DNA from: Clostridia bacterium
GTDB lineage: Bacteria; Bacillota; Clostridia; Christensenellales; Borkfalkiaceae
Assembly (NCBI GenBank): GCA_017545865.1
Contig: JAFWXO010000006.1
Location: forward strand, 1 to 35,930
Length of the DNA: 35,930 bases
Reading direction: 5' to 3'
Shown here: positions 3,584 to 16,299 of the stretch, piece by piece
How the letters are laid out: each line of letters begins with the position of its first letter
Position numbering within the stretch: position 1 is the first letter of the stretch
Made by a program: the position numbers and the translations under genes
Notes under the pieces: generated by a model
Seen by the model: the letters and a program-made list of their open reading frames with translations, nothing else
What the model was told of the DNA's origin: nothing
The model's database searches: none

Positions 3584-3731
3584 GCTAAATGCAACATTTG
3601 GTTGCGCTAAATTACTTCGTAGCTAAATTTGCCTATCGGCAAGTGATATTTTACGCTAAGCGTAAAGTGATATTTTGCCTTGTGGCAAAGTGATATTCGG
3701 CGTTGCCGAGTGATATGCTACCTTTGGTAGC
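3584..3731. repeat. Array of seven unrelated hairpins joined by GCTAAAT / GTGATAT linkers
   Basis: Seven short perfect or near-perfect inverted repeats follow each other. Their arms are GCAAC/GTTGC, TAC/GTA, TTGCC/GGCAA, TTTACGC/GCGTAAA, TTTGCC/GGCAAA, TCGGC/GCCGA and GCTACC/GGTAGC. The stems differ in sequence but the linkers do not: GCTAAAT occurs at 3584, 3606 and 3622, then GTGATAT at 3643, 3667, 3690 and 3710. It begins 10 nt after the VanZ-like gene stops. No reading frame is evident. Confidence 0.85.
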
Positions 3732-3760
3732 GTTGTGGATTTAATCTGTTTATTAAAACA

Positions 3761-3801
3761 ATTTTAAGACGTTAGAAACAAGCAAGGCGGATATTATAGC
3801 C
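3761..3801 (+). repeat. Truncated copy of the 110-nt structured element
   Basis: Positions 3761-3788 match 3813-3840 almost base for base (ACGTTAGAAACAAGCAAGGC versus CCGTTAGAAACAAGCAAGAC), 52 bp apart. The match then stops, so only the 5' part of the element is present. Confidence 0.75.
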
Positions 3802-3819
3802 TATTCCAACATAATTTAA

Positions 3820-3933
3820 GCCGTTAGAAACAAGCAAGACAAGGCTCGCGAAGGCTTTGGGGTGAGATTGACCTTTTGGTCATCGAAGTCCAAAGGCTAA
3901 GCAGAAACGCAGTATTGCGCCGTTTGTAACGGC
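3820..3933 (+). repeat. Structured element, copy A (candidate ncRNA or mobile hairpin element)
   Basis: A nested fold can be drawn: P1 GCCGTTA (3820-3826) / TAACGGC (3927-3933); P2 GCAAGAC (3834-3840) / GTATTGC (3912-3918, one mismatch); P3 CTTTGG (3855-3860) / CCAAAG (3890-3895); P4 TGACC (3869-3873) / GGTCA (3878-3882) with a TTTT loop. Unpaired blocks shared with copy B (15928-16037) include ACAAGGCTCGC, TGAG, CGAAGTCC and AAGCAGAAACGCAGT. Stem sequences differ from copy B but pairing is kept. It lies 10 nt upstream of tRNA-Arg. I do not recognise the family, and the transcribed strand is unknown. Confidence 0.75.
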
Positions 3934-3943
3934 TTAAAAAAAA

Positions 3944-4020
3944 CTAACCGTAGCGTAGCTGGATAACGCCCAAGACTCCGACTCTTGAGATCACAGGTTC
4001 AAATCCTGTCGGTTAGACCA
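3944..4020 (+). tRNA. tRNA-Arg (anticodon CCG), CCA encoded
   Basis: A 77-nt cloverleaf. Acceptor CTAACCG (3944-3950) pairs with CGGTTAG (4010-4016), then discriminator A and CCA. The D stem is GCGT/ACGC with AGCTGGATA in the loop. The anticodon stem is CAAGA/TCTTG around loop CTCCGAC, with anticodon CCG at 3978-3980. The variable region is 5 nt. The T arm is ACAGG-TTCAAAT-CCTGT. It decodes CGG. Confidence 0.96.
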
Positions 4021-4026
4021 AAAATA

Positions 4027-4060
4027 AAAAGAGATGCAAGCGCATCTCTTTTTTATTTTT
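4027..4060. terminator. Terminator shared by tRNA-Arg (+) and the XRE regulator (-)
   Basis: Stem AAGAGATGC (4029-4037) / GCATCTCTT (4042-4050), with T-runs after it on the plus strand and an A-rich 5' side that gives T's on the minus strand. It sits right after the tRNA CCA. Confidence 0.8.
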
Positions 4061-4649
4061 TCTTATATTTTTTAGGGGTTATCATAGACCATAAAACGAT
4101 GGCGACTTGTAAGGGAACGCCAAGGATAAATAACGGCCATAAAGTATACTTTAAAGTGTAAACGAAAACGGTTGCTAAAATACTCCAAACGAGCGCGGTT
4201 ATGATAATAAAGGTAAACTTTCTCTTACCCCATATTCCGTTAAACACTAAAAGAACAATGCAAGAGATGGGAACTGCCGTTACGAATACTTGCCAAGTAA
4301 CTACTTGATGAAGAGTTATTGCGTAAACGAAAAATATAACAGCAATAAGCCACACCAAAGAAACGGCAAGAAGAGTTATCCAAATCTTGTTTGAAAATTC
4401 CTTCTTTTGAGCCTTTTCGCTAATGATAACTTCGCCCGTTCGTTCGGTGGTTAGATAGTCAAGCGAAACGCCGTACATATCGGCAAGCGCTTTTAAAACT
4501 TCAACAGGGGGAGTAACGTCACCCCGCTCCCATTTTGAAACGGACTTATCAGTATAATTAAGCCTTTCCGCAACTTCTAATTGAGTTATTTTCTTTTGTT
4601 GCCTAAGCGCGAGTAAATTCTCGGCTATTATATCTTTTAGTTCCTTCAT
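4053..4649 (-). CDS. XRE-family regulator with C-terminal membrane domain
   Basis: 198 residues from the ATG at 4649. A Cro/CI-type helix-turn-helix fills residues ~7-62 (QLEVAERLNYTDKSVSKWERG), then a polar linker, then four hydrophobic helices to the C terminus (for example IWITLLAVSLVWLIAVIFFV). This plan, a DNA-binding domain tethered to the membrane, is common in Clostridia and usually senses envelope conditions; the ligand is unknown. I prefer 4649 over the in-frame upstream ATG at 4697 because a promoter sits just upstream and the HTH begins there. There is no Shine-Dalgarno, so the transcript should be leaderless. Confidence 0.85.
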   Translation of the reverse strand: MKELKDIIAENLLALRQQKKITQLEVAERLNYTDKSVSKWERGDVTPPVEVLKALADMYGVSLDYLTTERTGEVIISEKAQKKEFSNKIWITLLAVSLVWLIAVIFFVYAITLHQVVTWQVFVTAVPISCIVLLVFNGIWGKRKFTFIIITALVWSILATVFVYTLKYTLWPLFILGVPLQVAIVLWSMITPKKYKKK

Positions 4650-4655
4650 ACGCCG

Positions 4656-4684
4656 ATTATAACAGTATTTTTCAAAAAAATCAA
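4656..4684 (-). promoter_or_regulatory. Promoter of the XRE-membrane regulator, leaderless
   Basis: Minus strand: TTGATT (4684-4679), 17-nt spacer, TATAAT (4661-4656). The ATG A at 4649 lies 7 nt beyond the -10. Confidence 0.7.
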
Positions 4685-4798
4685 CAAAAAAACGCAAACT
4701 CTCACACTAAGAGAGTTGCTCTAACCCTATCTATTTTGCATAGAAATAAGGTTGAATATTTTTCAAGTTTTAAAATCAGTTTAGTAGAGATGATTCCA

Positions 4799-4826
4799 TT
4801 GATTTTTGCGCTTTTTCAAGTATAAA
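4799..4826 (+). promoter_or_regulatory. Candidate promoter of the glycolipid locus
   Basis: TTGATT (4799-4804), 16-nt spacer, TATAAA (4821-4826). A Shine-Dalgarno AAGGAA lies before the ATG at 4856. Confidence 0.5.
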
Positions 4827-4855
4827 CTTAAATAAAAAAGCAAAAAGGAATTATT

Positions 4856-6634
4856 ATGAGCAAAATTTCAAACAAAACTAACGTTATTCCTGTGTTTTAC
4901 GCTTGCGATGAAAACTTCGTTAAGTACGCCGTGGTTTCTATAAAATCACTAATAGAAAACGCTTGCGAAGAAAATTTTTACAAAATTTATATACTCAATT
5001 CGGGCATTTCCGAAAACGCCAAAAATATCGTTAAAGAGTTGGAAAGGGACTATGCAACAATAACTTTCGTTAACGTTTGTTCGCTTTTAGAAAAGTCAAG
5101 CAATTTTCCGCTTAGAGATTATTACTCAAAAACAACTTACTATCGCTTTTATATCTCAGAACTTTTCCCTGAGTACGATAAGGTTTTGTATATCGATAGC
5201 GACACCGTTATTTTAAGCGACGTTTCTAATCTATATAATATAGATATAGGCGAAAACTTGGTTGGCGCTTGCAACGAGCAAGTTATGATTCAAACTGAAG
5301 TTTACGGCAATTACGTTGAAAGTGTTTTAGAAATTGATAGGCACAACTATTTTAACGCCGGCGTTATGATTATAAACGCCAAAGAGTTTAGAAATCAAAA
5401 GGTTTTAAACGAGTTTTTCTCGCTATTAAAAATCTACCCGTTCGTAGTTACGCAAGACGAAGACTATCTCAACGTTATTTGCAAAGGGAAAGTTCACTTT
5501 TTAAACCAAGGTTATAACGTTGAAGTTTACGGCGATATTCCCGTTTTGGAAAAGGACTTTAAGATTATTCACTATATAATGGTTTCAAAACCGTGGCACT
5601 ATAAAGATTGTAGATTAAAGGAATACTTTTGGCGCTACGCCGAAAAAACGAACGTTTATAACGAAATTTTATCCGATTTAAACTCGTATACGGACAGCGA
5701 AAGGGAAAGAGATAGGCTCGGCGCTGAAAAACTTATGCAAACGGCTATTTACGAATCGGAAAGGCTTGATAGGTTTTCAAACGTTATAAAAACCACCCGC
5801 CCCGACAGGCTTAAAGTCTTGGAAAAAATACGCCTACTTGAAAAGGAAAAAAAGTTTGACGTTGACGTTGAAGACGACCCCGAAACTATAATCTTAAAAC
5901 CCGAAAAGGTTGATTACCTATCCAAAAAACTAAGCACGAGATTTTTTACCAAAATTGCAAACCGCATGGCAACTTGGTACTATGAAAAGGAAATTAAAAA
6001 GGGAAACTTTATCATAAAAAACGTTATCGGGCTTGAAAACTACAAGTCGGTAAAAGGCGGTTGTTTTCTAACTTGCAACCATTTTAGCGTTTACGATAAT
6101 TACGCCGTTTGGAGAGCGATTAAAAGCGAATTTAAGGCTGGAAAAAGGCTCTATAAGGTAATTCGCGAAGGAAATTACACTAATTTTAAAGGCTTATACG
6201 GGTTTTTCTTTCGCCATTGCAACACCTTACCGCTATCAAGCAACGTTAAAACGATGAAAAACTTTTTTACCGCCGTTGAAACGCTAATTTCTCGCGGAGA
6301 AACTATCCTTATCTATCCCGAACAAGCGATGTGGTGGAATTACAAAAAACCACGCCCTTTAAAGAGCGGGGCGTTCAAATTTTCGGCAAAGACTAAAGCG
6401 CCGATAGTTCCTTGCTTTATCACGATGGAAAAGTCTGGAAGACCCGACGACGGCGGTTTTGACATTCCCGCCTATACCGTTTGGATTTTACCGCCGATTT
6501 ATCCAAAAGAAGAACTTTCAGAAAAGGAAAACGCGGAGTATTTAATGAAGGAAAACTACCGCGTTTGGAAAGAGTTATACGAAAAGATTTACGATAAACC
6601 CTTAGATTACGAAAAGTTATGTTTTACTGTTTAA
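4856..6634 (+). CDS. Fusion of a GT8 glycosyltransferase and a PlsC-type acyltransferase
   Basis: 592 residues in two domains. Residues ~9-265 are a GT8 (galactosyltransferase/LgtC-type) domain: N-terminal VIPVFYACDENFVKYAVVSI, metal-binding YIDSDTV (DSD 114-116), FNAGVMIIN (167-174), and a C-terminal HY...KPWH block (239-248). After a helical linker, residues ~370-560 resemble 1-acylglycerol-3-phosphate acyltransferases. The catalytic HX4D is NHFSVYD (H409, D414), and YPEQ (487-490) stands where FPEG is usual. GT8 enzymes use UDP-sugars; PlsC enzymes move acyl groups from acyl carriers at the membrane. Together they suggest one protein that glycosylates and acylates a lipid or glycan (inference). 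The next gene overlaps it by 16 nt. Confidence 0.88.
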   Translation: MSKISNKTNVIPVFYACDENFVKYAVVSIKSLIENACEENFYKIYILNSGISENAKNIVKELERDYATITFVNVCSLLEKSSNFPLRDYYSKTTYYRFYISELFPEYDKVLYIDSDTVILSDVSNLYNIDIGENLVGACNEQVMIQTEVYGNYVESVLEIDRHNYFNAGVMIINAKEFRNQKVLNEFFSLLKIYPFVVTQDEDYLNVICKGKVHFLNQGYNVEVYGDIPVLEKDFKIIHYIMVSKPWHYKDCRLKEYFWRYAEKTNVYNEILSDLNSYTDSERERDRLGAEKLMQTAIYESERLDRFSNVIKTTRPDRLKVLEKIRLLEKEKKFDVDVEDDPETIILKPEKVDYLSKKLSTRFFTKIANRMATWYYEKEIKKGNFIIKNVIGLENYKSVKGGCFLTCNHFSVYDNYAVWRAIKSEFKAGKRLYKVIREGNYTNFKGLYGFFFRHCNTLPLSSNVKTMKNFFTAVETLISRGETILIYPEQAMWWNYKKPRPLKSGAFKFSAKTKAPIVPCFITMEKSGRPDDGGFDIPAYTVWILPPIYPKEELSEKENAEYLMKENYRVWKELYEKIYDKPLDYEKLCFTV

Positions 6635-7203
6635 CAATTTTAATATCAATGGCGGTAATTTCCGCCGTTAACGTTTTTACCGTTGCGCCGATTTACGGTT
6701 ACGAGTTTTACGAGATTATTATTTGGACTACCGTTTGCACTATTTCCGCTATCGTTATAGACGGGGTATGCGCTCTCGTTGTTAGAAGGCTTTTACCTAA
6801 AAGGTGGTTTGAAGGGATAAAAAAAGGCTTTGTTGCAACACCGAAAGAGAGCAAGTTTTATCAAAAGATAGGCATTAAAAAATGGAAAGACAAGGTTATC
6901 GATCTTGGAGTTTTCACGGGGTTTAGAAAGAACAAGATTTACGACCCCAAAAACAACGAATACGTTTTAAGATATGTTCTTGAAGCCAACTACGGCGTTG
7001 TTTGCCACTTGGTTGGCGTGGGACTTGGCGTGTTTTGCGCACTCTGCGCCCCAAAAAACCTATGGCTAACGATAGGCGTTCCCGTGGCGGTGGTAAACTT
7101 AGTTTTATCAACCCTACCCGTTTTCGTTTTGAGATACAACCTTATAAAACTACACAAACTCTACCGAGTTAACGCATTATTAAACAAAAAAAGCAGTGAA
7201 TAA
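6619..7203 (+). CDS. Small membrane protein similar to CrtO-type glycosyl acyltransferases
   Basis: 194 residues with two hydrophobic segments at each end and a polar middle. The middle block FYQKIGIKKWKDKVIDLG...F.KNKI resembles the glycosyl-4,4'-diaponeurosporenoate acyltransferase (CrtO) family, whose members acylate a sugar on a membrane lipid. Its start overlaps the GT8-acyltransferase gene by 16 nt, so translation is probably coupled. A second acylation step in the same glycolipid pathway is a reasonable inference. No carotenoid genes are nearby, so the substrate is unlikely to be staphyloxanthin. The stop codon lies inside the downstream terminator. Confidence 0.65.
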   Translation: MFYCLTILISMAVISAVNVFTVAPIYGYEFYEIIIWTTVCTISAIVIDGVCALVVRRLLPKRWFEGIKKGFVATPKESKFYQKIGIKKWKDKVIDLGVFTGFRKNKIYDPKNNEYVLRYVLEANYGVVCHLVGVGLGVFCALCAPKNLWLTIGVPVAVVNLVLSTLPVFVLRYNLIKLHKLYRVNALLNKKSSE

Positions 7204-7218
7204 TTCACTGCTTTTTTT
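7187..7218. terminator. Bidirectional terminator between convergent genes
   Basis: Stem AAAGCAGTGAA / TTCACTGCTTT around the TAA stop of the CrtO-like gene, with an A-run before and a T-run after. It serves both converging genes. Confidence 0.85.
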
Positions 7219-7741
7219 AATCAAACGCTTTATCGAGCGCTTTGTTTATCGCTTCATAATTAAGATATGGGTCATCATAACTTGCAAGCCTTGCCATATT
7301 CGTGTATTCATACGAATAACTGCCAAACCTCATTATAACACCTGCAGTATCATAAACTTTTTTACTGCTGCTATCATAAAAATATATAGCGTAAGTATTA
7401 TCGACACCTATCCAAAAATAACCGTCGCCAAATTCATCAATCGTACCGGACAAAACGTCTGCATTTTCAGGCTCGTCTAACGTTTTAAAAATTGCCTTGT
7501 TCATTTTAAAAGCCTTGGCATCATCGCCCTTTAACCCACCGTTTACACACGATGAGCAAGTGGTAACGCTTAAAATAATTATCGATAAAAATACAATCGG
7601 CACTCCAACAAGCGCTATTTTAAACCATTTTTCAGCCTTTTTTTCATTATAAAACTTAACGCACTTGTCTTTTAATTTTGTAAAAATATTAGGGGTTTTA
7701 TCATTATTTTCCATCTTGTTTTCACTTTTGTTTTCGTTCAT
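7217..7741 (-). CDS. Single-pass membrane protein of unknown function under XRE control
   Basis: 174 residues, no family recognised. Residues ~1-40 are charged and predicted cytoplasmic. One hydrophobic helix (IALVGVPIVFLSIIILSV, ~43-60) is followed by a CSSC pair and an extracytoplasmic ~110-residue domain rich in Tyr and Asp. The ATG at 7741 has a good Shine-Dalgarno (AAAGGAGAAA). Its promoter is near-perfect and holds an operator in the spacer, and the neighbour on the other strand is a small XRE repressor, so regulation by that repressor is very likely. Confidence 0.75.
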   Translation of the reverse strand: MNENKSENKMENNDKTPNIFTKLKDKCVKFYNEKKAEKWFKIALVGVPIVFLSIIILSVTTCSSCVNGGLKGDDAKAFKMNKAIFKTLDEPENADVLSGTIDEFGDGYFWIGVDNTYAIYFYDSSSKKVYDTAGVIMRFGSYSYEYTNMARLASYDDPYLNYEAINKALDKAFD

Positions 7742-7761
7742 TAAAATTTCTCCTTTTTCGT

Positions 7762-7790
7762 ATTATATGATACATATTTGTATTTGTCAA
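7762..7790 (-). promoter_or_regulatory. Promoter of the membrane-protein gene, spacer occupied by an operator
   Basis: Minus strand: TTGACA (7790-7785), 17-nt spacer, TATAAT (7767-7762). The 16-bp operator at 7768-7783 fills the spacer, so a bound repressor would block RNA polymerase. Confidence 0.8.
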
Positions 7791-7813
7791 GTATGTTTGA
7801 TACTTTTTTGTAT
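7768..7813. promoter_or_regulatory. Two operator sites, 30 bp apart, between divergent genes
   Basis: TGATACATATTTGTAT (7768-7783) and TGATACTTTTTTGTAT (7798-7813) are direct repeats with two differences. Each is internally dyad-symmetric (ATACA/TGTAT; ATAC/GTAT). Start-to-start distance is 30 bp, about three helical turns. Site 1 lies in the spacer of the minus-strand promoter; site 2 overlaps the -10 of the plus-strand regulator. Confidence 0.7.
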
Positions 7814-7816
7814 AAT
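7811..7816 (+). promoter_or_regulatory. -10 box of the small XRE regulator, leaderless
   Basis: TATAAT at 7811-7816, with the ATG A at 7823, 7 nt downstream, and no Shine-Dalgarno. No good -35 is seen at 17-18 nt; the partial TTGTCA is 21 nt away, suggesting a weak promoter. Confidence 0.55.
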
Positions 7817-7822
7817 GATATT

Positions 7823-8035
7823 ATGGATATGAATTTTAGCAAAAACAACATAGCCGAATTGCGAAAATCAAAAAACTTAACGCAAAGGCAGTTGGCGCAA
7901 GCAATAGGAACGAGCCAAGCAAACTTATCGCGTTGGGAACAAGGCGTTATCACCCCAAGCGTTATTGAGTGCTGGAAAATAGCCGACTTTTTTGACGTTA
8001 GTATTGACGTTATTTGTGGAAGAAGAGAATATTAA
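7823..8035 (+). CDS. Small XRE-family transcriptional regulator
   Basis: 70 residues, almost entirely one Cro/CI helix-turn-helix (NIAELRKSKNLTQRQLAQAI ... QANLSRWEQGV). Start chosen at the ATG at 7823 (MDMNFSKNN); an upstream in-frame start at 7778 would run through the operators and promoter and is unlikely. Two matched operators next to it argue that it represses both itself and the divergent membrane-protein gene (inference from layout). The transcript is predicted to be leaderless. Confidence 0.9.
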   Translation: MDMNFSKNNIAELRKSKNLTQRQLAQAIGTSQANLSRWEQGVITPSVIECWKIADFFDVSIDVICGRREY

Positions 8036-8062
8036 GTTTTAATTTTAAAATTTAAAATAGCC

Positions 8063-8095
8063 AAAACCCCGAAAGTATTTTACTTTCGGGGTTTT
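8063..8095 (+). terminator. Terminator of the small XRE gene
   Basis: Perfect 15-bp stem, CCCCGAAAGTA / TACTTTCGGGG extended by AAAA/TTTT, with a T-run after it. Confidence 0.85.
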
Positions 8096-8101
8096 ATATT
8101 T

Positions 8102-8130
8102 AAAAACTCGGCTTTTAAGCCGAGTTTTTA
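8102..8130. terminator. Terminator of the PAP2 gene
   Basis: Stem AAAAACTCGGCTT / AAGCCGAGTTTTT, bidirectional, directly before the PAP2 stop at 8134. Confidence 0.85.
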
Positions 8131-8133
8131 TTA

Positions 8134-9063
8134 TTATTTATTACCGAGTTTTGAAAACCATTTGAACGTGAGTGGCCATAAAATACCCGCCGTTATAACG
8201 ACTAAGAAATACCTTATCGAACAGGCGATTAAACTGCCGTTAAAGATAGCGTCAAGCGGATAACGAGTTAGTTCTTTTACCGCCAAAACGATTGCTAAGC
8301 CAACCACTACTTTTATAATTTGCGCCCACCAAACTGCTTTCGTTTCAAAGCGCAAATACCTTTGGTCAACGAAATATACCACGAAAAAGCCGATTGAACA
8401 ACCGAGAAGCGTAAACGCGTTTTTCCTTGCCGACTCTAAGTTGTGGATATTATCCTTAGCGTATACTTCCGCAGGGAACGGATACAAGCACACGAATAGC
8501 ATAAACGCCACTACTAACACGAAAAGCGACGCTATTATTATATACATAATCTTGTCGTTTTCTTCCGCCTTTTTAAATAGTGGGTATCCACCGAAAATTA
8601 AGAGCAACGATATTAAAACAGACACCAAAACGTCAAGCGGGGTGTGAACGCCGAGATACATTCTCGATAGCGGAACTAAAACGCAAAGGGCAATAGTGCC
8701 CCAGCGCACCCAAGCGTTTTTGTTTGCGCGGGCAATACCACCAAGTAGCGTTACCGACGTTTGAGTGTGACCGCTCGGAAACGAAAATCCGCTCGCCCCT
8801 TCCCTTGCCGACTCAACGATAGTGAAGTTTGGATCTTTAATCCACGGGCGTGGAATTCTAAACAGCATTTTTAAAAACTGATTGATAATAGTGCCTAAAA
8901 ACCCCGTTATGAGCAGAAAATAGCCTTGGAATTTACTAAAACACCAAAAAACTATTATTCCTATCGCCATAAACGCCGTTTCTTCCCCAAGCAAAGTTAT
9001 CAAGGAGAAGAACGCGTCACACACAGGGTTTCTAATGCTTTCTAAAAAGTAAAGAAAACTCAT
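8134..9063 (-). CDS. PAP2-family membrane phosphatase
   Basis: 309 residues with about eight hydrophobic helices. All three acid-phosphatase motifs are visible: KMLFRIPRP (KX6RP), FPSGHTQTS (PSGH), and SRMYLGVHTPLDV (SRX5HX3D). The family removes phosphate from lipid phosphates such as undecaprenyl pyrophosphate, phosphatidic acid or phosphatidylglycerophosphate on the outer membrane face; the substrate here is unknown. The C-terminal half has extra helices beyond the minimal PAP2 fold. Its ATG overlaps the stop of the metal-binding gene (ATGA), so the two are translationally coupled. Confidence 0.93.
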   Translation of the reverse strand: MSFLYFLESIRNPVCDAFFSLITLLGEETAFMAIGIIVFWCFSKFQGYFLLITGFLGTIINQFLKMLFRIPRPWIKDPNFTIVESAREGASGFSFPSGHTQTSVTLLGGIARANKNAWVRWGTIALCVLVPLSRMYLGVHTPLDVLVSVLISLLLIFGGYPLFKKAEENDKIMYIIIASLFVLVVAFMLFVCLYPFPAEVYAKDNIHNLESARKNAFTLLGCSIGFFVVYFVDQRYLRFETKAVWWAQIIKVVVGLAIVLAVKELTRYPLDAIFNGSLIACSIRYFLVVITAGILWPLTFKWFSKLGNK

Positions 9064-9284
9064 ATATCAAATTTTTCTACGCCTAAAACTGCGTAACCCC
9101 TATCTTCAATCGCAAGCTTAACTGCATTTTCATCAACGGGTTTTTTTGCGGTTATTTCAACCGTTTTATCTATATGCGATGCAACCGCCGTTTTTACTGA
9201 AACGGCTTTTTTAACGGCTTCTACGGCATGTTTTTCACAATTACCGCACATCATACCGTCAACTTTAAAAACGTATTTTATCAT
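9060..9284 (-). CDS. Heavy-metal-associated (HMA) domain protein, CopZ-like
   Basis: 74 residues, one beta-alpha-beta-beta-alpha-beta HMA domain with metal-binding GMMCGNCEKHAV (CXXC). Such proteins bind Cu(I) or similar ions and hand them to transporters. Start chosen at the ATG at 9284, which has a GGAG 6 nt upstream; an alternative GTG at 9296 lies inside the previous gene and overlaps the Shine-Dalgarno. The stop of the large repeat gene is 1 nt upstream and the PAP2 start overlaps its end. No copper ATPase is in the window, so the partner is unknown. Confidence 0.9.
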   Translation of the reverse strand: MIKYVFKVDGMMCGNCEKHAVEAVKKAVSVKTAVASHIDKTVEITAKKPVDENAVKLAIEDRGYAVLGVEKFDI

Positions 9285-9285
9285 A

Positions 9286-12200
9286 TTATGCTCCACTAGG
9301 AATTAACGCTACGATTTCACTAAATATTCTATCAATCGTCCAAGTTTCCCAAACGCCTACGCCGTGTACGCTATCGAAAACGAAGTCAAGTTTAGCAGTC
9401 GTTTCGTCGGATAAGTGCATAACGCCAGCGTGGTCAAGCTCAGCGTAACTTGCTTCTTCCGCGCCGATGCTTACTCTTTCGGCAAACTCTGACATAGGAA
9501 TGTGCGCAACGTCTTCGTATTCGTTGGGGTTGGTAACAACGCCGTATTCATCTTTAATTACTCCAAGATGAGCAAGGGCGAATAAGCCGTGGTCAAGTTC
9601 ATCGTGAGTTAAAACGTCACCCATAACGAACTCTAAACTCTTAATACCGTGTTCGTCCATATCGGCTATTTGAAGGTCGGCAACTCTCGCTTCAACGCCT
9701 ACTTCTAATACCCAGTTTTCACCGATGCGTTCGTACCAAAGGTCTTTAGTTGCCAAGCAGTCAACTGCGCCGTGAACGGGACAAGAACTATCGCCCGTAC
9801 ACCTTGTAAAGCCCATAACTTCACCGATATAAAGACTGTCAATCTTAGTAGCCAAATCGTCGAGCGAAGTGTCTTTTAAGAGAGTGAGCATAGTGTTACC
9901 GTTGGTATCGATAACGTCGCCAAGCGTCATATTGTTAACCTTTGCGTTAATGCCGTTTATGGTCGTACCGCCAGAGCATAAGTATTCTAAAACCTTATTG
10001 CCGTTAGTTTCGATTAAGTCTTCAAGTTTTAACGAGTTAACGTCTAACGATACAGTTCCGTTCAACACGTCGCCAAGGCTAATTTCGGCAAGCAATTTGT
10101 CAACGCCCGTAAGCGCAACGCCACCGTCAGTCCAAGCCGTTCCGTTAAATTCGTAACCCATAAAGTCGCCGACGTATAAAGTTTCAAGTTTCTTGGTTAT
10201 AAGCGTGCCGTCTTGTAAAAGAGCGGGAACGTCAATATCTGCGATCGTAGCGTATAATACGGAAGCGTCGTCACCGTTAGCGTCTTTCCAACCGCCACTT
10301 TCATACTTTAAGCCTAAGAATTCACCGAGTTTAATGCCTTGCAACAAGTCGCCTATTTCAAGCGAACCGAATTCCGATACGCTTCTACCGTAAATTCCGT
10401 AGAATACCTTGCCCGTTATATCGGTATTGTCGATGGCAACGCCGTTGTCGTACCAAGTAGTACCGTCGTAAGTTAAGCCCATAACGTCGCCAACGGAAAC
10501 GTATTTCAATTCGTCTTTTATATTAAGCGTACCGTTCAATACAGCGCTTAAACTTATATCTGCAATAATCTTATCAACGCCCGTTATAGAAACGCTACCG
10601 TTAAGCCAGTCGCTACCCGATTTAACGTAACCCATAAAGTCGCCAACGTATAAAGTTCCGATCCTGTCGTTTAACAAGTTGGGGTTAGCAATAAGCGCGG
10701 AAACGTTAACGTCTGCTATCGTTGAATAGAGTATAGACGCCTTAGTTCCGTCAGATTGTTCCCATCTATTATCGGTATCGTCGTAAGTTAAACCTAAGAA
10801 TTCGCCGAGCGTAACGTTTACGAGCAATTCTTCCATTGAAATTCCGCCACCCGACAAGTCGTTAAGCGTTTTACCGTACATTTCGTAGAAGATTTTATCT
10901 ACCGTTTCAGTCTTAGGCGCGGGAATTTCGTTTTCGTCAACCCAAATAGAGCCGTTGTAAGTATAGCCTAAAATTTCGCCGATTTTTATGCCGTTAAGTT
11001 CAGTTTGAATATCGAGCGTTCCGTCTAAAACTTCGCTAAGTTTAATATCGGCAAGCGTTTTATTAACGCCGGTTACAACCTTGCCACCGTCAAGCCACTC
11101 GTCGCCCGACTTTTCGTATTTCATAAATTCGCCGAAATACAACTCGCCGATTTCGTCAGTGAGCGCTTTGGGGTTATTCATAAGTTCTGTTATATAAATA
11201 TCGGCAATCGATTCGTAGAGCGCGTCGGCAGGAACTCCGCCTTCGTCTTCCCAACGATTTTCGTCTTCGTTATAAACGTAGCCCATAAATTCGCCGAGTT
11301 TAATTCCGCCCATCAATTCGTCGATTTGTAAAGTATCAAAGTCGTTTAAGGTTTTGCCGTATAATTGATACATAACTTTGGAAGTTACGTCGTTTCTTTC
11401 AATGGGGTTACCGTCACTATCGTACCAGTTGCCAAGAGTTGAAGAACAATCGAATAAATCGTGAACTTCACAATAAGCATCGCCCGAACACTCAACGTAG
11501 CCGAAAATTTCGCCAACTTTAGTTTCGTTAATAATGCCTTCAATATCGAGATTTCCGTTAAGCGCGTCAACAAACGAATTAGCGGAAAGTTTATCAAACA
11601 TCTTGCCAACGTAAGCGCCCGTATCGTCAAACCACTTGCCGATACTATCTTCACAGTTAACGTAAGGATCAACTGCGCCGTGAACGGGACAAGAACTATC
11701 GCCCGTACACTTTTTATAACCGAACGCCGAGCCGAGATACAACCCGTCAAGCATAGCGTTAATATCTAATCCGCCGGACATTAAATCAACAACGGAAATA
11801 CCTGCTAAGTTTTTAAGTAAGCCTTTTTCAAGGTCAGGCTTAGTGGAAATCACACCACCTTCGTAAAGTTCCCCGTCACAATCTAAAACGTTTTCGTGAA
11901 CGGGGCAAGACTCGTTTTTAGTGCAGAGTTCAACGCCCATAAACTTGCCGATATTTAAGCAGTTTAAAATGGGCTCTGGGGAGAAGGCGTATTTGTTTTG
12001 TTCATCACTCCAAACGAAAGTTTCGCCAAGCGTTACGCCTGATAAAATTGCCAAGCCTTCGTATTTAGCGTTAAAAGTTTCTTCATCCTTAGAACCGAAC
12101 GACGCTATAATCTCAATAAGTTCTTTATCTTTAAGCGAAGAAAGATACCCGTCTTGAACTTCGTGACCGATATCAAAACCGCTTTCTCTCTTGTCAGTCA

Positions 12201-12855
12201 ACACGCCGAGTTCAACGTTCGCTAAAAGGTTTAAGCCACGGTCTTCAGATACGTATTCAAAAGTTCCATCGGGAAGTAACACTTCTTCGTAAGAAGAACT
12301 TAAAACGCTACCGAGTTTCATTGAACGGAGAACGGAACTGTAACCCGAATTGTCAGTTTCTCCACCGAAAAAGTCAGCCAACGTAAACTGCCTTAAACGG
12401 TTTCTTGCGCCCTCTGAGAAAATAGGATATTTGCCCGTTTCACTGTTTTTAGGTATAAACAAGAACACAACGCCCATACCAACTTCTTGTAAAGCGCCAC
12501 CGCCGAACATCGAGCCGATTGCAAGTTCTTTAAAACTTTCAATATCTTTAGGATTAGCGTTTTCAACGTCAACTCCCATAGTCGTCAAGAAAGAGTTTAC
12601 GTTAAAACCCTTCTTTTCAAGTTCTTTAACGGTAAAGGCTTGCGGATCTTTCTTAATATCAACGATAAAAGCAGTCCACTCCTCAAACGTCATCGAACTT
12701 AAACCGCCTAAGGTTTCTTCCTTAACGCCAACGTCTTTAGGGGTTAAGTTTTTAAACGCCCAGTAACCACCGCCAACGAGCGCCCCCACAACGAGCGCGA
12801 ACGCTACTATCATACCTAAAAAGAACGCGAGCGTTCTTCTCATAAAATTGCCCAT
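9286..12855 (-). CDS. Large secreted or anchored repeat protein with Cys/His motifs, unknown function
   Basis: 1189 residues, no family recognised. An N-terminal hydrophobic helix (~8-30, FFLGMIVAFALVVGALVGGG) follows MGNFMRR and should direct export or anchoring. The rest is acidic and repetitive: units like LGEFLGLTYDD..W, YVGDFMGYVKSG.DWLNG and GVDKIIADISLSAVLNGTLNI recur roughly every 60-130 residues. Four copies of C-x5-C-x-V-H-...-C occur near residues 308, 381, 453 and 1016 (for example CTGDSSCPVHGAVDC), perhaps metal or disulfide sites. A 42-bp exact repeat underlies two of them. Shine-Dalgarno GGAG precedes the ATG. It follows rplI by 51 nt and is tightly linked to the HMA and PAP2 genes. 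A surface role is inference. Confidence 0.8.
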   Translation of the reverse strand: MGNFMRRTLAFFLGMIVAFALVVGALVGGGYWAFKNLTPKDVGVKEETLGGLSSMTFEEWTAFIVDIKKDPQAFTVKELEKKGFNVNSFLTTMGVDVENANPKDIESFKELAIGSMFGGGALQEVGMGVVFLFIPKNSETGKYPIFSEGARNRLRQFTLADFFGGETDNSGYSSVLRSMKLGSVLSSSYEEVLLPDGTFEYVSEDRGLNLLANVELGVLTDKRESGFDIGHEVQDGYLSSLKDKELIEIIASFGSKDEETFNAKYEGLAILSGVTLGETFVWSDEQNKYAFSPEPILNCLNIGKFMGVELCTKNESCPVHENVLDCDGELYEGGVISTKPDLEKGLLKNLAGISVVDLMSGGLDINAMLDGLYLGSAFGYKKCTGDSSCPVHGAVDPYVNCEDSIGKWFDDTGAYVGKMFDKLSANSFVDALNGNLDIEGIINETKVGEIFGYVECSGDAYCEVHDLFDCSSTLGNWYDSDGNPIERNDVTSKVMYQLYGKTLNDFDTLQIDELMGGIKLGEFMGYVYNEDENRWEDEGGVPADALYESIADIYITELMNNPKALTDEIGELYFGEFMKYEKSGDEWLDGGKVVTGVNKTLADIKLSEVLDGTLDIQTELNGIKIGEILGYTYNGSIWVDENEIPAPKTETVDKIFYEMYGKTLNDLSGGGISMEELLVNVTLGEFLGLTYDDTDNRWEQSDGTKASILYSTIADVNVSALIANPNLLNDRIGTLYVGDFMGYVKSGSDWLNGSVSITGVDKIIADISLSAVLNGTLNIKDELKYVSVGDVMGLTYDGTTWYDNGVAIDNTDITGKVFYGIYGRSVSEFGSLEIGDLLQGIKLGEFLGLKYESGGWKDANGDDASVLYATIADIDVPALLQDGTLITKKLETLYVGDFMGYEFNGTAWTDGGVALTGVDKLLAEISLGDVLNGTVSLDVNSLKLEDLIETNGNKVLEYLCSGGTTINGINAKVNNMTLGDVIDTNGNTMLTLLKDTSLDDLATKIDSLYIGEVMGFTRCTGDSSCPVHGAVDCLATKDLWYERIGENWVLEVGVEARVADLQIADMDEHGIKSLEFVMGDVLTHDELDHGLFALAHLGVIKDEYGVVTNPNEYEDVAHIPMSEFAERVSIGAEEASYAELDHAGVMHLSDETTAKLDFVFDSVHGVGVWETWTIDRIFSEIVALIPSGA
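9761..9802 (-). repeat. 42-bp exact direct repeat, copy 1
   Basis: Identical to 11669-11710. It encodes the GDSSCPVHGAVD motif in the large repeat protein and points to recent internal duplication or gene conversion. Confidence 0.9.
11669..11710 (-). repeat. 42-bp exact direct repeat, copy 2
   Basis: Identical at every base to 9761-9802, in the same orientation and the same reading frame. Confidence 0.9.
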
Positions 12856-12906
12856 ACTATCTCCAAATATAACCGAATTATCGGTTGAAAATTGATTTTA
12901 AACGCT

Positions 12907-13350
12907 TTAAAGCGCGATAACTTCTACCTTAATTTTTGCAATTGCATCGGGTAAAAACTTAACTTCAACGTCGTAAACGCCAAGGTTCTTTATAGAGTCT
13001 TTAAGTAAAATCTTCTTCTTGTCTACCGAGTAGCCCTTTTCGGTTAAAACTTCGGCGATTTCCTTAGAAGTAACCGAGCCGAAAACTTTGCCGTTTTCAC
13101 CGCACTTGATTTTCACGGTAACAACTTCGCCGTTAAGTTTAGCGCACTCTGCTTTGAGAGCCTTGATTTCTTCTTGCTTGTGGAAATCTTGCGCATCTTT
13201 TTTAATGCTTAAACTGTTAATTTTAACGGAAGTTGCTTCTTCTGCAAGCCCCTTTTTGATAAGGCAATTTCTTGCGTAACCGTCGGCAACTTCTTTAATT
13301 TCGCCAGCTTTACCAGTTCCTTTAACGTCTTTTAATAAAATTATCTTCAT
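12907..13350 (-). CDS. rplI: 50S ribosomal protein L9
   Basis: 147 residues, usual length. The N-terminal 23S-binding domain has [36 protein letters not shown] long helix (~42-75) links it to the C-terminal domain. Start chosen at the ATG at 13350, with Shine-Dalgarno AAAGGAGAG; an upstream start would add 15 non-family residues. In many Firmicutes rplI is beside dnaB or a DHH phosphoesterase gene; here the next gene is the large repeat protein instead. It may share a transcript with the repeat protein, HMA and PAP2 genes, since no strong terminator separates them; only a T-less 6-bp hairpin near 12878-12893 lies between rplI and the repeat-protein gene. Confidence 0.97.
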
Positions 13351-13383
13351 ATTCTCTCCTTTATAGGTGTGTATCTTATAAAA

Positions 13384-13412
13384 ATTGTATATCAAATAAC
13401 CGTTTTTGTCAA
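13384..13412 (-). promoter_or_regulatory. rplI promoter
   Basis: Minus strand: TTGACA (13412-13407), 17-nt spacer, TACAAT (13389-13384). Confidence 0.75.
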
Positions 13413-13471
13413 TGTATAAATCGTATATTTTAAAATATACTATTTATAGACAATTTACAAAGGGGGAAATT

Positions 13472-13618
13472 ATGAATAAAAATACGATAGATTGCGACGT
13501 TGCAAGTTGCTTATACAACTGCCTTGGCAAAGAGTGTACTTTAAAAGGCGTGAAAATAACTACCGACTGCACCGACCTTACTTGCTGTGGAAGTTATAAA
13601 AATAAACACGCGGAATAA
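13472..13618 (+). CDS. DUF1540 small cysteine-rich protein
   Basis: 48 residues, MNKNTIDCDVASCLYNCLGKE and a second half ending DLTCCGSYKN. The spacing of cysteines matches the short DUF1540 family found in spore-forming Firmicutes; function unknown, perhaps metal binding. The start is set by a strong AAGGGGGAA Shine-Dalgarno before the ATG at 13472; an in-frame upstream extension to 13406 lacks one. It is divergent from rplI and ends at its own terminator. Confidence 0.85.
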   Translation: MNKNTIDCDVASCLYNCLGKECTLKGVKITTDCTDLTCCGSYKNKHAE

Positions 13619-13650
13619 AAAAAAGCATAGGAAATTTCCTATGCTTTTTA
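13617..13650. terminator. Terminator of the DUF1540 gene
   Basis: Stem AAAAGCATAGGAAA / TTTCCTATGCTTTT, nearly loopless palindrome, T-rich after it; works on both strands. Confidence 0.8.
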
Positions 13651-13656
13651 AGTTAT

Positions 13657-13674
13657 ACGTTGCTACCGCAACGT
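13657..13674. terminator. Hairpin downstream of the GH31 gene
   Basis: ACGTTGC / GCAACGT with a TACC loop. There is no clear T-run on the minus strand, so it may protect the 3' end rather than terminate. Confidence 0.4.
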
Positions 13675-13698
13675 TACAATAGATTTTACAAAATATAA

Positions 13699-15642
13699 TC
13701 ATTTAAAGCATTTTAGCACTTTCGCACCCTTTTTAACGAACGCAACGTACTCGTTTATCTCAACGTCAATTTCATGCAAGCGTTCGCCACAGTATTCTTT
13801 ACCATCCTTAGTAAGTACCCACTTGCCCTTAGGTAAATATGCCAAAACGCTCTTTGCGCCCTGCTTTGTTACGGGCGCAAACAAAATATCTTCGCCAAAC
13901 ATATATTGTCCCTTTGTTTCCCAACAATTCTTGTCGTCAGGAAATTCAAAAAACATAGGACGAATAATCGGCCACCCTTTTTGCGACGCTACCTTCATTT
14001 GCTCGCTAATATACGGGCGCAATTTCTCACGAGTAGCCAAAATACCCTTAATAATCTCAAACGCCTGCTCGCCAAAACTCCAAATTTCGTTAGGGTCGCC
14101 ACTTTGTTCAATAATGGGGCGGTCTTCGCTATGTCGAACGCGACTACCATGCAAGCGCATTACGGGACAAAACAATCCAAACTGAAACCAACGCACGATT
14201 AGTTCACGGAAATATTCGCTGGTCGTGTCACCGTCGTAAAAGCCACCTATATCGGTATTCCACCACACGATTCCACACATAGCCATGTTTTGAGCCGCAT
14301 AAACTTGACGTTCCAAACTCTCAAAAGTAGATGCTATATCACCCGACCACACGAGCGAGGCATACTTTTGACTGCCGAAATAGCCACCACGAATAAGGGT
14401 AACTATATCATCCCTACCCATAGCCTTTTGTCCTTCGTAAACAAGCCTTGCGTAATCAACGGGATAAGTGAGCGCAGTCATATCATATCTGCCATTATAA
14501 TTGATACAGTTATCAAAATGTTCAGGATAAATTTCAGGTTCAGACACGTCGAACCAAAAGGCATCAACGCCCTTGTCGGCGTAATTTTCTTTTAATTTAC
14601 CCCAAACAAACTCGCGCGTTCGAGGGTTAGCCACGTCAATTTCCGCCTGCCAACCGTAAAAATCAAACAGCTTATTAGAGCCGTTTGCCGTACGAATCAA
14701 CATATTATTGTCATACATATACTTGTAATTTTCGCTACGTTCGTTTATAGTCGGCCACATTGAAACGATTAGTTTGGTATTACCTTCGTGAATCTCGTCC
14801 GCCATAGCCTTAACGTCGGGCCAGTACTTTGGATCAAACTTATAATCGCCCTGCTCCGTCCAATGGAAATAGTCAATGATTATAGCCGAAAGCGGAATAT
14901 TTAACTCACGATAACGTCTAACAACTGAAAGCACTTCATCCTGCGATTCATAACGCAACCTGCTTTGCCAAAAACCCGTCGCCCAGTCTGGCATCACGGG
15001 CGCATGCCCAGTAAGGTCAGCCAAAACCTCACTCGTTTCTTTAGGACTACCAGCAATAACCACGTAATCAACCGCTTTACAGCAGTCACTATGCCACCTA
15101 GTTCTGTTTTTTGCAAACTCCACCCTTCCAATCGATGGAACGTTCCACAAAAAACCATACCCCTGCGAAGAGTACACGTATGGAACTACGCTTTTTGCGT
15201 TAATATGTTTTATATCGTGCACTGTTCCCTTAAGGTCAAATTCGTTATCCCACGAATGCCCCATACCAAACAGTTTTTCATCGCTCGGCTCAAAACTAAC
15301 GTCAGCGGAATACGTTTCGTGTCCTACGTTTCTATATTGACGGCTTCTACCGCCAAAAGTATATTCTCGCTTTTCACGTATAACGCATTTTTTATTTATA
15401 TAAAACTGCACTTCGCCGTTTCTCACGGTAACTGACAACGCGCCATTTCTCATTGATACGCAATTTTCACTCTGCTCAATCTCGGCATCCACCGAGCAAG
15501 GCATCAGATTATAGTTAGTATCAACCACTTTACATCCTGGAAAAGCCTGAAAGCGAATAGCATTGTTTCCACACGCCATAATTTTGACAACTTCGTTTGC
15601 TAAAGTAATCTCAATCTCTCCATTTCGCACCATTACGTTCAT
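13699..15642 (-). CDS. GH31 family alpha-xylosidase / alpha-glucosidase
   Basis: 647 residues. It hydrolyses terminal alpha-linked glucose or xylose by a retaining mechanism. The catalytic barrel shows YRELNIPLSAIIIDYFHWTE, the nucleophile region KGVDAFWFDVSEPE (D365) and the acid/base region LVWSGDIAST, plus downstream MRLHGSR. The layout (N-terminal beta-sandwich, barrel, short C-terminal sheet) is closest to YicI-like alpha-xylosidases, but substrate choice cannot be read here. There is no signal peptide, so it is cytoplasmic. Start chosen at the ATG at 15642, which has AAGGAGAGGGAA in front; the in-frame ATG at 15684 has none. Confidence 0.93.
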   Translation of the reverse strand: MNVMVRNGEIEITLANEVVKIMACGNNAIRFQAFPGCKVVDTNYNLMPCSVDAEIEQSENCVSMRNGALSVTVRNGEVQFYINKKCVIREKREYTFGGRSRQYRNVGHETYSADVSFEPSDEKLFGMGHSWDNEFDLKGTVHDIKHINAKSVVPYVYSSQGYGFLWNVPSIGRVEFAKNRTRWHSDCCKAVDYVVIAGSPKETSEVLADLTGHAPVMPDWATGFWQSRLRYESQDEVLSVVRRYRELNIPLSAIIIDYFHWTEQGDYKFDPKYWPDVKAMADEIHEGNTKLIVSMWPTINERSENYKYMYDNNMLIRTANGSNKLFDFYGWQAEIDVANPRTREFVWGKLKENYADKGVDAFWFDVSEPEIYPEHFDNCINYNGRYDMTALTYPVDYARLVYEGQKAMGRDDIVTLIRGGYFGSQKYASLVWSGDIASTFESLERQVYAAQNMAMCGIVWWNTDIGGFYDGDTTSEYFRELIVRWFQFGLFCPVMRLHGSRVRHSEDRPIIEQSGDPNEIWSFGEQAFEIIKGILATREKLRPYISEQMKVASQKGWPIIRPMFFEFPDDKNCWETKGQYMFGEDILFAPVTKQGAKSVLAYLPKGKWVLTKDGKEYCGERLHEIDVEINEYVAFVKKGAKVLKCFK

Positions 15643-15701
15643 TTCCCTCTCCTTCAAAATCATTAGCCTAATGCTAAAATTCATTTATACAGGTTAATTT
15701 T

Positions 15702-15730
15702 ATTATAACGCATCTATTCCCTTTTTTCAA
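15702..15730 (-). promoter_or_regulatory. GH31 promoter
   Basis: Minus strand: TTGAAA (15730-15725), 17-nt spacer, TATAAT (15707-15702). Confidence 0.75.
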
Positions 15731-15750
15731 TAACATTATTTAGAAAATAA

Positions 15751-15786
15751 AACACCCTGCAGTTAGTTTGCAGAGTGCTTAAAAAT
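15751..15786 (-). terminator. Second terminator after the rpsF operon
   Basis: Stem CACTCTGCA / TGCAGGGTG (one G-T pair) followed on the minus strand by TTTTATTTT. Confidence 0.6.
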
Positions 15787-15876
15787 ATTTTTTATTTAAC
15801 TTTTTTTTGTTATAAAATTTAATATACCTAAAGCAAAAAGTTTTTGTAACTTTCGGTCAAAAATTTTGCAAATAAA

Positions 15877-15914
15877 AAACTCCCGTTAATAAGTAACGAG
15901 AGTTGTTTTTTTAT
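15877..15914. terminator. Terminator after the rpsF-ssb-rpsR operon
   Basis: Stem AACTCTCGTTA / TAACGGGAGTT (15904-15894 / 15889-15879 on the minus strand), T-run on both sides. Together with the hairpin at 15751 and element B it fills the 15685-16047 gap; no gene is seen there. Confidence 0.75.
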
Positions 15915-15927
15915 TGTAGTTTTTAGA

Positions 15928-16037
15928 CTTTAGAAGCAAGTATAACAAGGCTCGCAAAGTTTACGGGATGAGTTAGACCTTTCGGTCAACGAAGTCCGTA
16001 AACGAAGCAGAAACGCAGTTATACGCCGCTTATAAAG
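15928..16037 (+). repeat. Structured element, copy B (candidate ncRNA or mobile hairpin element)
   Basis: Second full copy of the element at 3820-3933. P1 CTTTA (15928-15932) / TAAAG (16033-16037), continued by AAGC/GCTT; P2 GTATAAC (15940-15946) / GTTATAC (16018-16024); P3 GTTTACGG (15959-15966) / CCGTAAAC (15996-16003); P4 GACC (15976-15979) / GGTC (15984-15987) with a TTTC loop. P1, P2 and P3 differ from copy A on both arms yet still pair. It ends 10 nt from the rpsR stop, pointing toward it. Confidence 0.75.
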
Positions 16038-16047
16038 GATAAAAAAA

Positions 16048-16299
16048 TTATTCGCCCTTGAAGGGAAGTAAATCAGCGATTCTTGCTCTCTTGATTGCTT
16101 TAGCAAGTGCTCTTTGGTGTTGAGCGCAAACGCCGGTCATACGACGGGGAAGGATTTTGCCCTTTTCCGTAACGAATCTTTTGAGTTTTGCAACGTCTTT
16201 ATAATCGATAGCTTCAACCTTTTCTACGCAGAAAGTGCAAACCTTTTTTCTGGGCGCTTTCTTGAAAGGCTTTTTAGCTACGGTGGTTTTTTCTTCCAT
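16048..16299 (-). CDS. rpsR: 30S ribosomal protein S18
   Basis: 83 residues with a slightly long basic N terminus. [19 protein letters not shown] begins the conserved core, and [23 protein letters not shown] is the RNA-binding helix. CXXC plus CAQH marks the zinc-binding form. It binds the platform of the 30S subunit as a partner of S6. Last gene of rpsF-ssb-rpsR, 15 nt after ssb. Confidence 0.98.

Follow-up and report, generated by a model that had tools for sequence, protein, structure and literature searches.

Introduction

The attC sites of integrons are imperfect palindromes that lie behind stop codons in a fixed orientation; their active strand is the one complementary to the coding strand, and their shape is conserved more than their sequence, between ends of the form RYYYAAC ... 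GTTRRRY. Group IIC introns insert behind terminator hairpins, likewise in one orientation, and require a reverse transcriptase. The pneumococcal BOX element is a small hairpin repeat comparable to ERIC/RU, and we know of no strict stop-codon location for ERIC/RU, MITE-like or BOX repeats. ERIC/RU and other MITE-like repeats are treated in PMC2759123 and PMC2229807. REP palindromes, according to PMC3733652, are high-copy sequences found mostly downstream of coding regions, with GTAG termini that often give the flanking open reading frames (ORFs) their stop codon and with unpaired GA residues in the P. aeruginosa GTAG-24 stems. PMC2267715 covers 40 genomes, two of them Clostridium, and we found no open-access paper that names the hairpin family described below.

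The window analysed here is a stretch of 35,930 nt, contig 6 of the 1.59 Mb genome of a Clostridia bacterium (assembly GCA_017545865.1). Two hairpins in it are members of a large dispersed family of imperfect palindromes of about 129 nt in Clostridia, and we report how these compare with the systems above. Loci and genomes are given their numbers (L and G) where a sentence depends on them.

Results

Two hairpins of the window and their neighbours

The initial annotation had reported two diverged structured blocks of about 110 nt that share their loops. Both are present in the places it gave (Table 1) and fold far below the energy of shuffled sequence (z -5.84 for positions 3815-3935 of copy 1 and z -6.57 for positions 15922-16042 of copy 2, both on the + strand and against dinucleotide shuffles); the size was slightly underestimated, the model giving about 129 nt. 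The copies are 76% identical to one another by blastn and have the reported loops in common. The three helices said to differ in sequence and still pair are all complementary, except that the middle helix of copy 1 contains a single G.A mismatch. A tRNA and a ribosomal protein gene do adjoin the copies as described; in the family at large a tRNA neighbour is not the rule, and a stop codon at one end is the most frequent one, followed by a hairpin or a further full or half copy. A copy also precedes tRNA-Arg(CCG) at L060 and, by eye, at L176. The rpsR product matches NCBIfam TIGR00165 with 103.5 bits (cut-off 38.75). Its stop codon lies 1 nt from copy 2, its coding strand is the element's - strand, and its probable terminator is found downstream of copy 2 in the sense of the gene. 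An arrangement resembling the half copy that stands before copy 1 is present at L024.

Positions 3620-3735 of the window hold, by eye, a tandem series of short hairpins whose stems differ and which are separated by an invariant AGTGATAT linker, and an array of this kind with AGTTATAT stands behind tpiA at L248 (also by eye).

Table 1. Positions of the two copies and of neighbouring features in the window.
Feature	Position	Strand	Basis or remark
Half copy: element 5' arm plus a further module, immediately preceding copy 1	3762-3812	+	Read from sequence
Copy 1 of the element	3813-3940	+	R1 match, 143.1 bits, E 6.7e-35
tRNA-Arg(CCG), adjoining copy 1	3944-4020	+	Copy 1 directly 5'
Hairpin then T-run, probable terminator of rpsR	15878-15904	-	By eye
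Copy 2 of the element	15919-16046	+	R1 match, 142.3 bits, E 1.1e-34
rpsR, gene for 30S ribosomal protein S18 and host of copy 2	16048-16299	-	ORF

A large dispersed family

Chance is excluded as the source of the resemblance, since copy 2 matches its own genome 17 times (itself included) at E < 1e-6, among 38 blastn matches with E values up to 10. When fifteen of the copies in this genome were aligned with MAFFT regardless of structure, 40 pairs were predicted, 25 of which carry two-sided changes, and one-sided changes are nearly absent. A search of the genome and its relatives with the structure model R1 found many further copies in both. All R1 genome counts are lower bounds, only part of the candidates having been scored. 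The own genome has at least 35 matches at E < 1e-4 (150 of 783 candidates scored), and at E <= 1e-12 the nine genomes of the genus hold at least 25 (own genome), 66, 76, 45, 58, 37, 3, 31 and 52. Matches occur in at least 70 of 101 genomes of the bacterial family (E <= 0.001), in at least 54 of 297 genomes of the order (E 1e-6) and in at least eight of 291 genomes of the class (E 1e-7), four of which, from two families, lie outside the order.

The distant copies examined came from the order search (23 copies in 18 loci) and the class search (eight loci, three of them within the order). All three loop motifs are present in 16 of the 23 order-search copies and in six of the eight class-search copies, and in none of the 4600 and 1600 shuffles, respectively, made for comparison. 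One match, L309 in G152, has none of the three motifs and was judged a chance palindrome. An exact pattern matched 34 stretches in seven named Clostridia metagenome-assembled genomes, five of them from ruminant guts by title. For the closer copies, 205 matches were reduced to 188 distinct copies, drawn from the best listed matches and not a random sample; a pattern designed around the inner stem hit just 51 of these 188 and was set aside.

The element had at first been assigned to no recognised family, and this stands: neither copy has an Rfam match at gathering score, the three and one hits obtained at E up to 10 all having E >= 4.8, and Rfam gave none on the element at four distant loci. A phage, plasmid or viral origin was rejected as well: at E 1e-5, neither copy 2 nor the one distant member searched gave a blastn match, and exact patterns had no match in viral contigs. 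Of the initial interpretation, the structure and the covariation hold, and the object itself is a high-copy dispersed repeat and not a pair of RNA copies.

Placement at gene ends

In 104 of the 188 copies a stop codon lies at one and the same end of the element, which starts at -17 to +3 nt relative to it. The reverse arrangement, in which an oppositely directed gene stops at the far end, occurs once in the 188, and start codons are found at either end in none of them. Among 30 copies of the own genome, an ORF flanks the + strand element on its right in 29; every one of these ORFs points at the element, and in 20 the stop codon falls within the same interval. The commonest registers are -7 (37 copies), -1 (26) and 0 (15). 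Stop-adjacent copies often provide the stop codon of the host gene, which in register -7 is the element's own TAA, and TAA ends 84 of 87 element-bearing ORFs compared with 151 of 187 other ORFs of the same stretches (p = 3e-4). The 84 other copies comprise 32 behind a hairpin that abuts a T-run (35 in a second terminator scan), 25 behind another copy or half copy, two at a contig edge and 25 others; the ORF rule missed several neighbours that were recognised by eye, for example rpsR at L142 and L106 and tRNA-Arg at L072 and L176. Of 31 distant copies, 22 lie within -20 to +10 of a stop codon, one is reversed and four have no upstream ORF that we found.

The copies at L068, L096, L100 and L102 stand, by eye, directly behind apparent T-box leader terminators. 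L304 carries a cobalamin riboswitch at 157-331.

Placement of this kind might also be that of an mRNA element maintained by the host at the start of the 3' UTR or in an intercistronic gap, and kept behind core genes. Its long hairpin would block exonucleases, guide processing or tune ribosome release at the stop, roles that have been reported for some REP elements. The fixed stop position and orientation in distant copies, the copies after rplA and rplJ (L150 and L175) and after obg (L078), and the terminator-like hairpin that lies downstream in 44 of the 104 stop-adjacent copies all favour such a role. However, in the 32 of 188 copies that stand behind a terminator-like hairpin the mRNA may already have ended, several orthologues of host genes are without the element, and the folding strand (below) also argues against it. 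We regard an mRNA element as the main rival explanation, though less likely than not.

Fit of the arms to the host gene

In the -7 class, the final sense codon contributes bases to the two outermost pairs, which nevertheless match in 34 and 31 of the 37 copies, compared with 20.1 and 23.6 of 37 in shuffles. In the -17 class (seven copies), where the outer arm is coding, eight of the ten outer pairs match in all seven copies, one in six and one in three. When the outer arm is coding, the opposite arm tends to complement that gene. At queA the fit of arm to gene is seen in several families, the identity being tested for L158 and judged by eye elsewhere. A 3' arm fitted to the coding sequence also counts in favour of an mRNA element.

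Pairing and covariation

Covariation was assessed in 131 copies, drawn from five genomes of the genus and three from other genera. In this alignment, which leans to structure and whose copies were picked by the structure model (with A3-A5 fitted to the model, which favours paired copies), 95.1% of cells pair, and two-sided changes occur at 36 of the 40 pairs, in agreement with the covariation originally claimed. Cells with two-sided changes number 1046, compared with 298 in shuffles that ignore relatedness, and pairing falls to about 40% when the partner is shifted by one base. The distant set gives the same picture, with two-sided changes at 34 of 40 pairs. Wobble is rare on both strands: on the + strand, and with one constant G-U pair excluded, 4997 cells comprise 4690 Watson-Crick, 61 G-U, 48 A-C and 198 other combinations, and a control of seven tRNAs, too small to carry weight, has 154 Watson-Crick, 4 G-U and 0 A-C. 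The constant G.U is kept in 121 of the 131 copies, and a G.A at columns 15/151 in 122.

Two-sided changes could in principle arise with no selection on shape, through template switching at hairpins or exchange of inner hairpins between copies. The scarcity of wobble intermediates counts for this, as does the inner stem that changes as a block between gapA orthologues; template switching has been proposed, in PMC8794818, as a source of two-sided changes in the stems of RNAs. Nevertheless, copies at least 95% identical differ by 22 single and 8 double changes (57 copy pairs), while at 70-80% identity double changes are 5.4 times singles, and singles first with doubles later is what stepwise compensation predicts. 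Loops and mismatches also survive in distant copies, where copying of one arm from the other would erase them, and the arms pair with protein-coding codons. We consider this origin of the covariation very improbable.

The folding strand

The initial annotation allowed for either an RNA or a hairpin DNA shape. In energy calculations with RNA parameters, the + strand (complementary to the mRNA) folds more stably in 169 of 182 copies; with DNA parameters it does so in 176 of 182, and it is the better folder in 26 of 31 distant copies. On our reading, the difference lies in purine-purine mismatches on the + strand. The best-folding strand complements the host mRNA, and G-U pairs are almost as scarce as A-C; selection acting on a single RNA strand would predict otherwise, and the balance leans to hairpin DNA. 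For an mRNA element the same figures are adverse: its strand is the weaker folder in those 169 copies, and its wobble, which appears as A-C on the + strand, amounts to 48 cells and so does not exceed that of the other strand (61).

The + strand might itself be transcribed, as an antisense RNA to the gene end or as the leader of whatever transcript lies downstream, which at copy 1 would be tRNA-Arg. It is the strand that folds best and that carries the conserved G.A and the constant G.U, and copy 1 lies on the strand of the tRNA. Against this, promoters are not enriched upstream on that strand, good sites being found in 4 of 183 regions, compared with 12 in the sense of the gene and 7 in shuffled sequence, and the consensus has, by eye, no T-run behind the hairpin on the + strand. 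Moreover, at 123 of the 188 copies the downstream ORF runs in the sense of the gene, which leaves no convergent ORF to transcribe the + strand at those places. We hold a functional + strand RNA to be very improbable.

Recent spread and long retention

In G026, six copies at unrelated genes are 96-99% identical (L150, rplA; L151, nrdD, named via its cluster with L073; L152, YloV/DAK2 family; L160; L163, aspartate kinase; L166, DegV); these near-identical copies record recent spread within genomes. Where the same gene carries a copy in two species, the two are mutual best matches in just 11 of 64 directed comparisons (32 of 33 pairs, one pair having a copy absent from the set). Other copies have apparently been kept vertically, namely those at gapA in three species, at L077/L172 and at rpsR (L142/L170). 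Copies also occur at queA and rpsG in distant families (the genes mostly named by eye), as a host function would lead one to expect, and this counts against mobility. G000 and G054 have nine neighbouring genes in common, of 25 and 27 sampled, where we estimate that chance would give fewer than one; this overlap, too, is in favour of an mRNA element. Recent movement and long retention both occur.

Nineteen host proteins were scanned. GAPDH, S18, TIM, NrdD, Obg, L1, L10, QueA and L27 exceed their cut-offs, as do YhbY, PRPP synthetase, dihydrolipoyl dehydrogenase, YloV, aspartate kinase and DegV; PurF and acyl-CoA synthetase fall below, and two host proteins have no family.

Orthologues that lack the element exist: in G041 the next gene begins within 9 nt of the obg stop, and gapA is followed by its terminator-like hairpin. 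These sites come from diverged congeners, whose flanks are too diverged to resolve an insertion junction. The comparison comprised 38 matches, 30 with loci examined, and five of these loci (one place twice), all in G065, have a clear copy. Weak matches of 22-33 bits at L253, L257 and L259 mean that G041 is not a fully clean element-free reference; they perhaps represent a diverged sister family.

G041 has few R1 copies, and another palindromic repeat stands there behind tpiA, behind rpmA and behind the gene orthologous to that at L077 (L253, L257 and L266), to which R1 gives weak scores of 24.9 (L253) and 32.7 bits (L257). A recurring module is found just behind many copies in the sense of the gene, GTTGTAATAGGC in G000 and CATTTAATAGGCTT in G026 (L067, L078, L081, L143, L159 and L169), and half copies occur too; the repeats are thus composite.

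Candidate partner enzymes

The Y1 (RAYT) transposase PF01797 is found in 0 of the nine genomes of the genus and in 5 of 14 control genomes. Integron integrase TIGR02249 exceeds its cut-off in 0 of the nine, with weak matches in 8 of 9 and in 14 of 14 controls. Reverse transcriptase PF00078 occurs in one of the nine, G065 (at least 45 copies), and in neither of the genomes with at least 66 and at least 76 copies. A shared partner among RAYT, reverse transcriptase and integron integrase was accordingly rejected for these nine genomes.

Discussion

We give roughly even odds (about 0.5) to the reading that the element is a non-autonomous mobile hairpin aimed at gene ends, similar in outline to REP and attC and acting mainly as folded DNA. 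Recent spread, stop-codon targeting, strand bias and kept pairing count for it, as does a copy number that ranges from at least 3 to at least 76 in nine genomes of one genus; the want of a partner among the enzymes searched and the vertically kept copies count against it. Such a hairpin would move as folded template-strand DNA, by means of an enzyme whose existence we infer. Its active form would be a folded single strand complementary to the host mRNA, and a candidate protein might recognise the G.A mismatch and the purine-rich internal loops and insert the element behind gene ends, where it would do little harm and could provide a stop codon. Once the element is in place, compensatory changes would fit its distal arm anew to the coding sequence of the host gene, perhaps aided by template switching or by copies exchanging their inner hairpins. 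REP elements and attC sites operate in such outline.

More tentatively, and short of an even chance, the family may constitute a class of mobile hairpin DNA in Clostridia, undescribed in the literature searched, that is inserted by an enzyme specifically at stop codons and terminators in one direction, with the template strand active and the distal arm refitted. Placement to nearly a single codon, with the REP and attC enzymes not found, would point to an unknown route of insertion. Annotation is affected too, because the element gives the stop codon of many genes, some of them core genes, and hundreds of natural copies offer a test of how arms co-evolve, whether by stepwise compensation, template switching or exchange.

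Among small non-autonomous hairpin repeats of about 100-170 bp that are mostly intergenic, the element is like ERIC/RU, MITE-like and BOX repeats. It would differ from these, for which we know of no strict stop-codon location, in its placement mostly at stop codons. It resembles group IIC introns in standing behind terminator hairpins in one orientation, but a reverse transcriptase is present in just one of nine genomes.

High copy number and an intergenic location downstream of genes are shared with REP/RAYT systems. The length differs (about 129 nt here, 20-40 bp for REP), as do the lack of a Y1 transposase in the nine genomes, the variable outer arm with no invariant GTAG/CGTC tag (by eye, CGTC stands near one end of many copies, and GGTC, GGCT and others are seen as well) and the single orientation to the gene, where many REP families are opposite-orientation pairs. 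Like attC, the element is a palindrome behind a stop codon in fixed orientation whose better-folding strand is complementary to the coding strand and whose shape is kept more than its sequence. Unlike attC, it has, by eye, no core boxes, its conserved end letters being TAGA and TATA; its host genes are core genes and not cassettes, and no integron integrase exceeds the cut-off in the nine genomes. Because the defining enzymes of both systems were not found in those nine genomes, we file the element under neither. By analogy, REP is its closest counterpart in placement and attC in strand and position, and at most the element would work like them.
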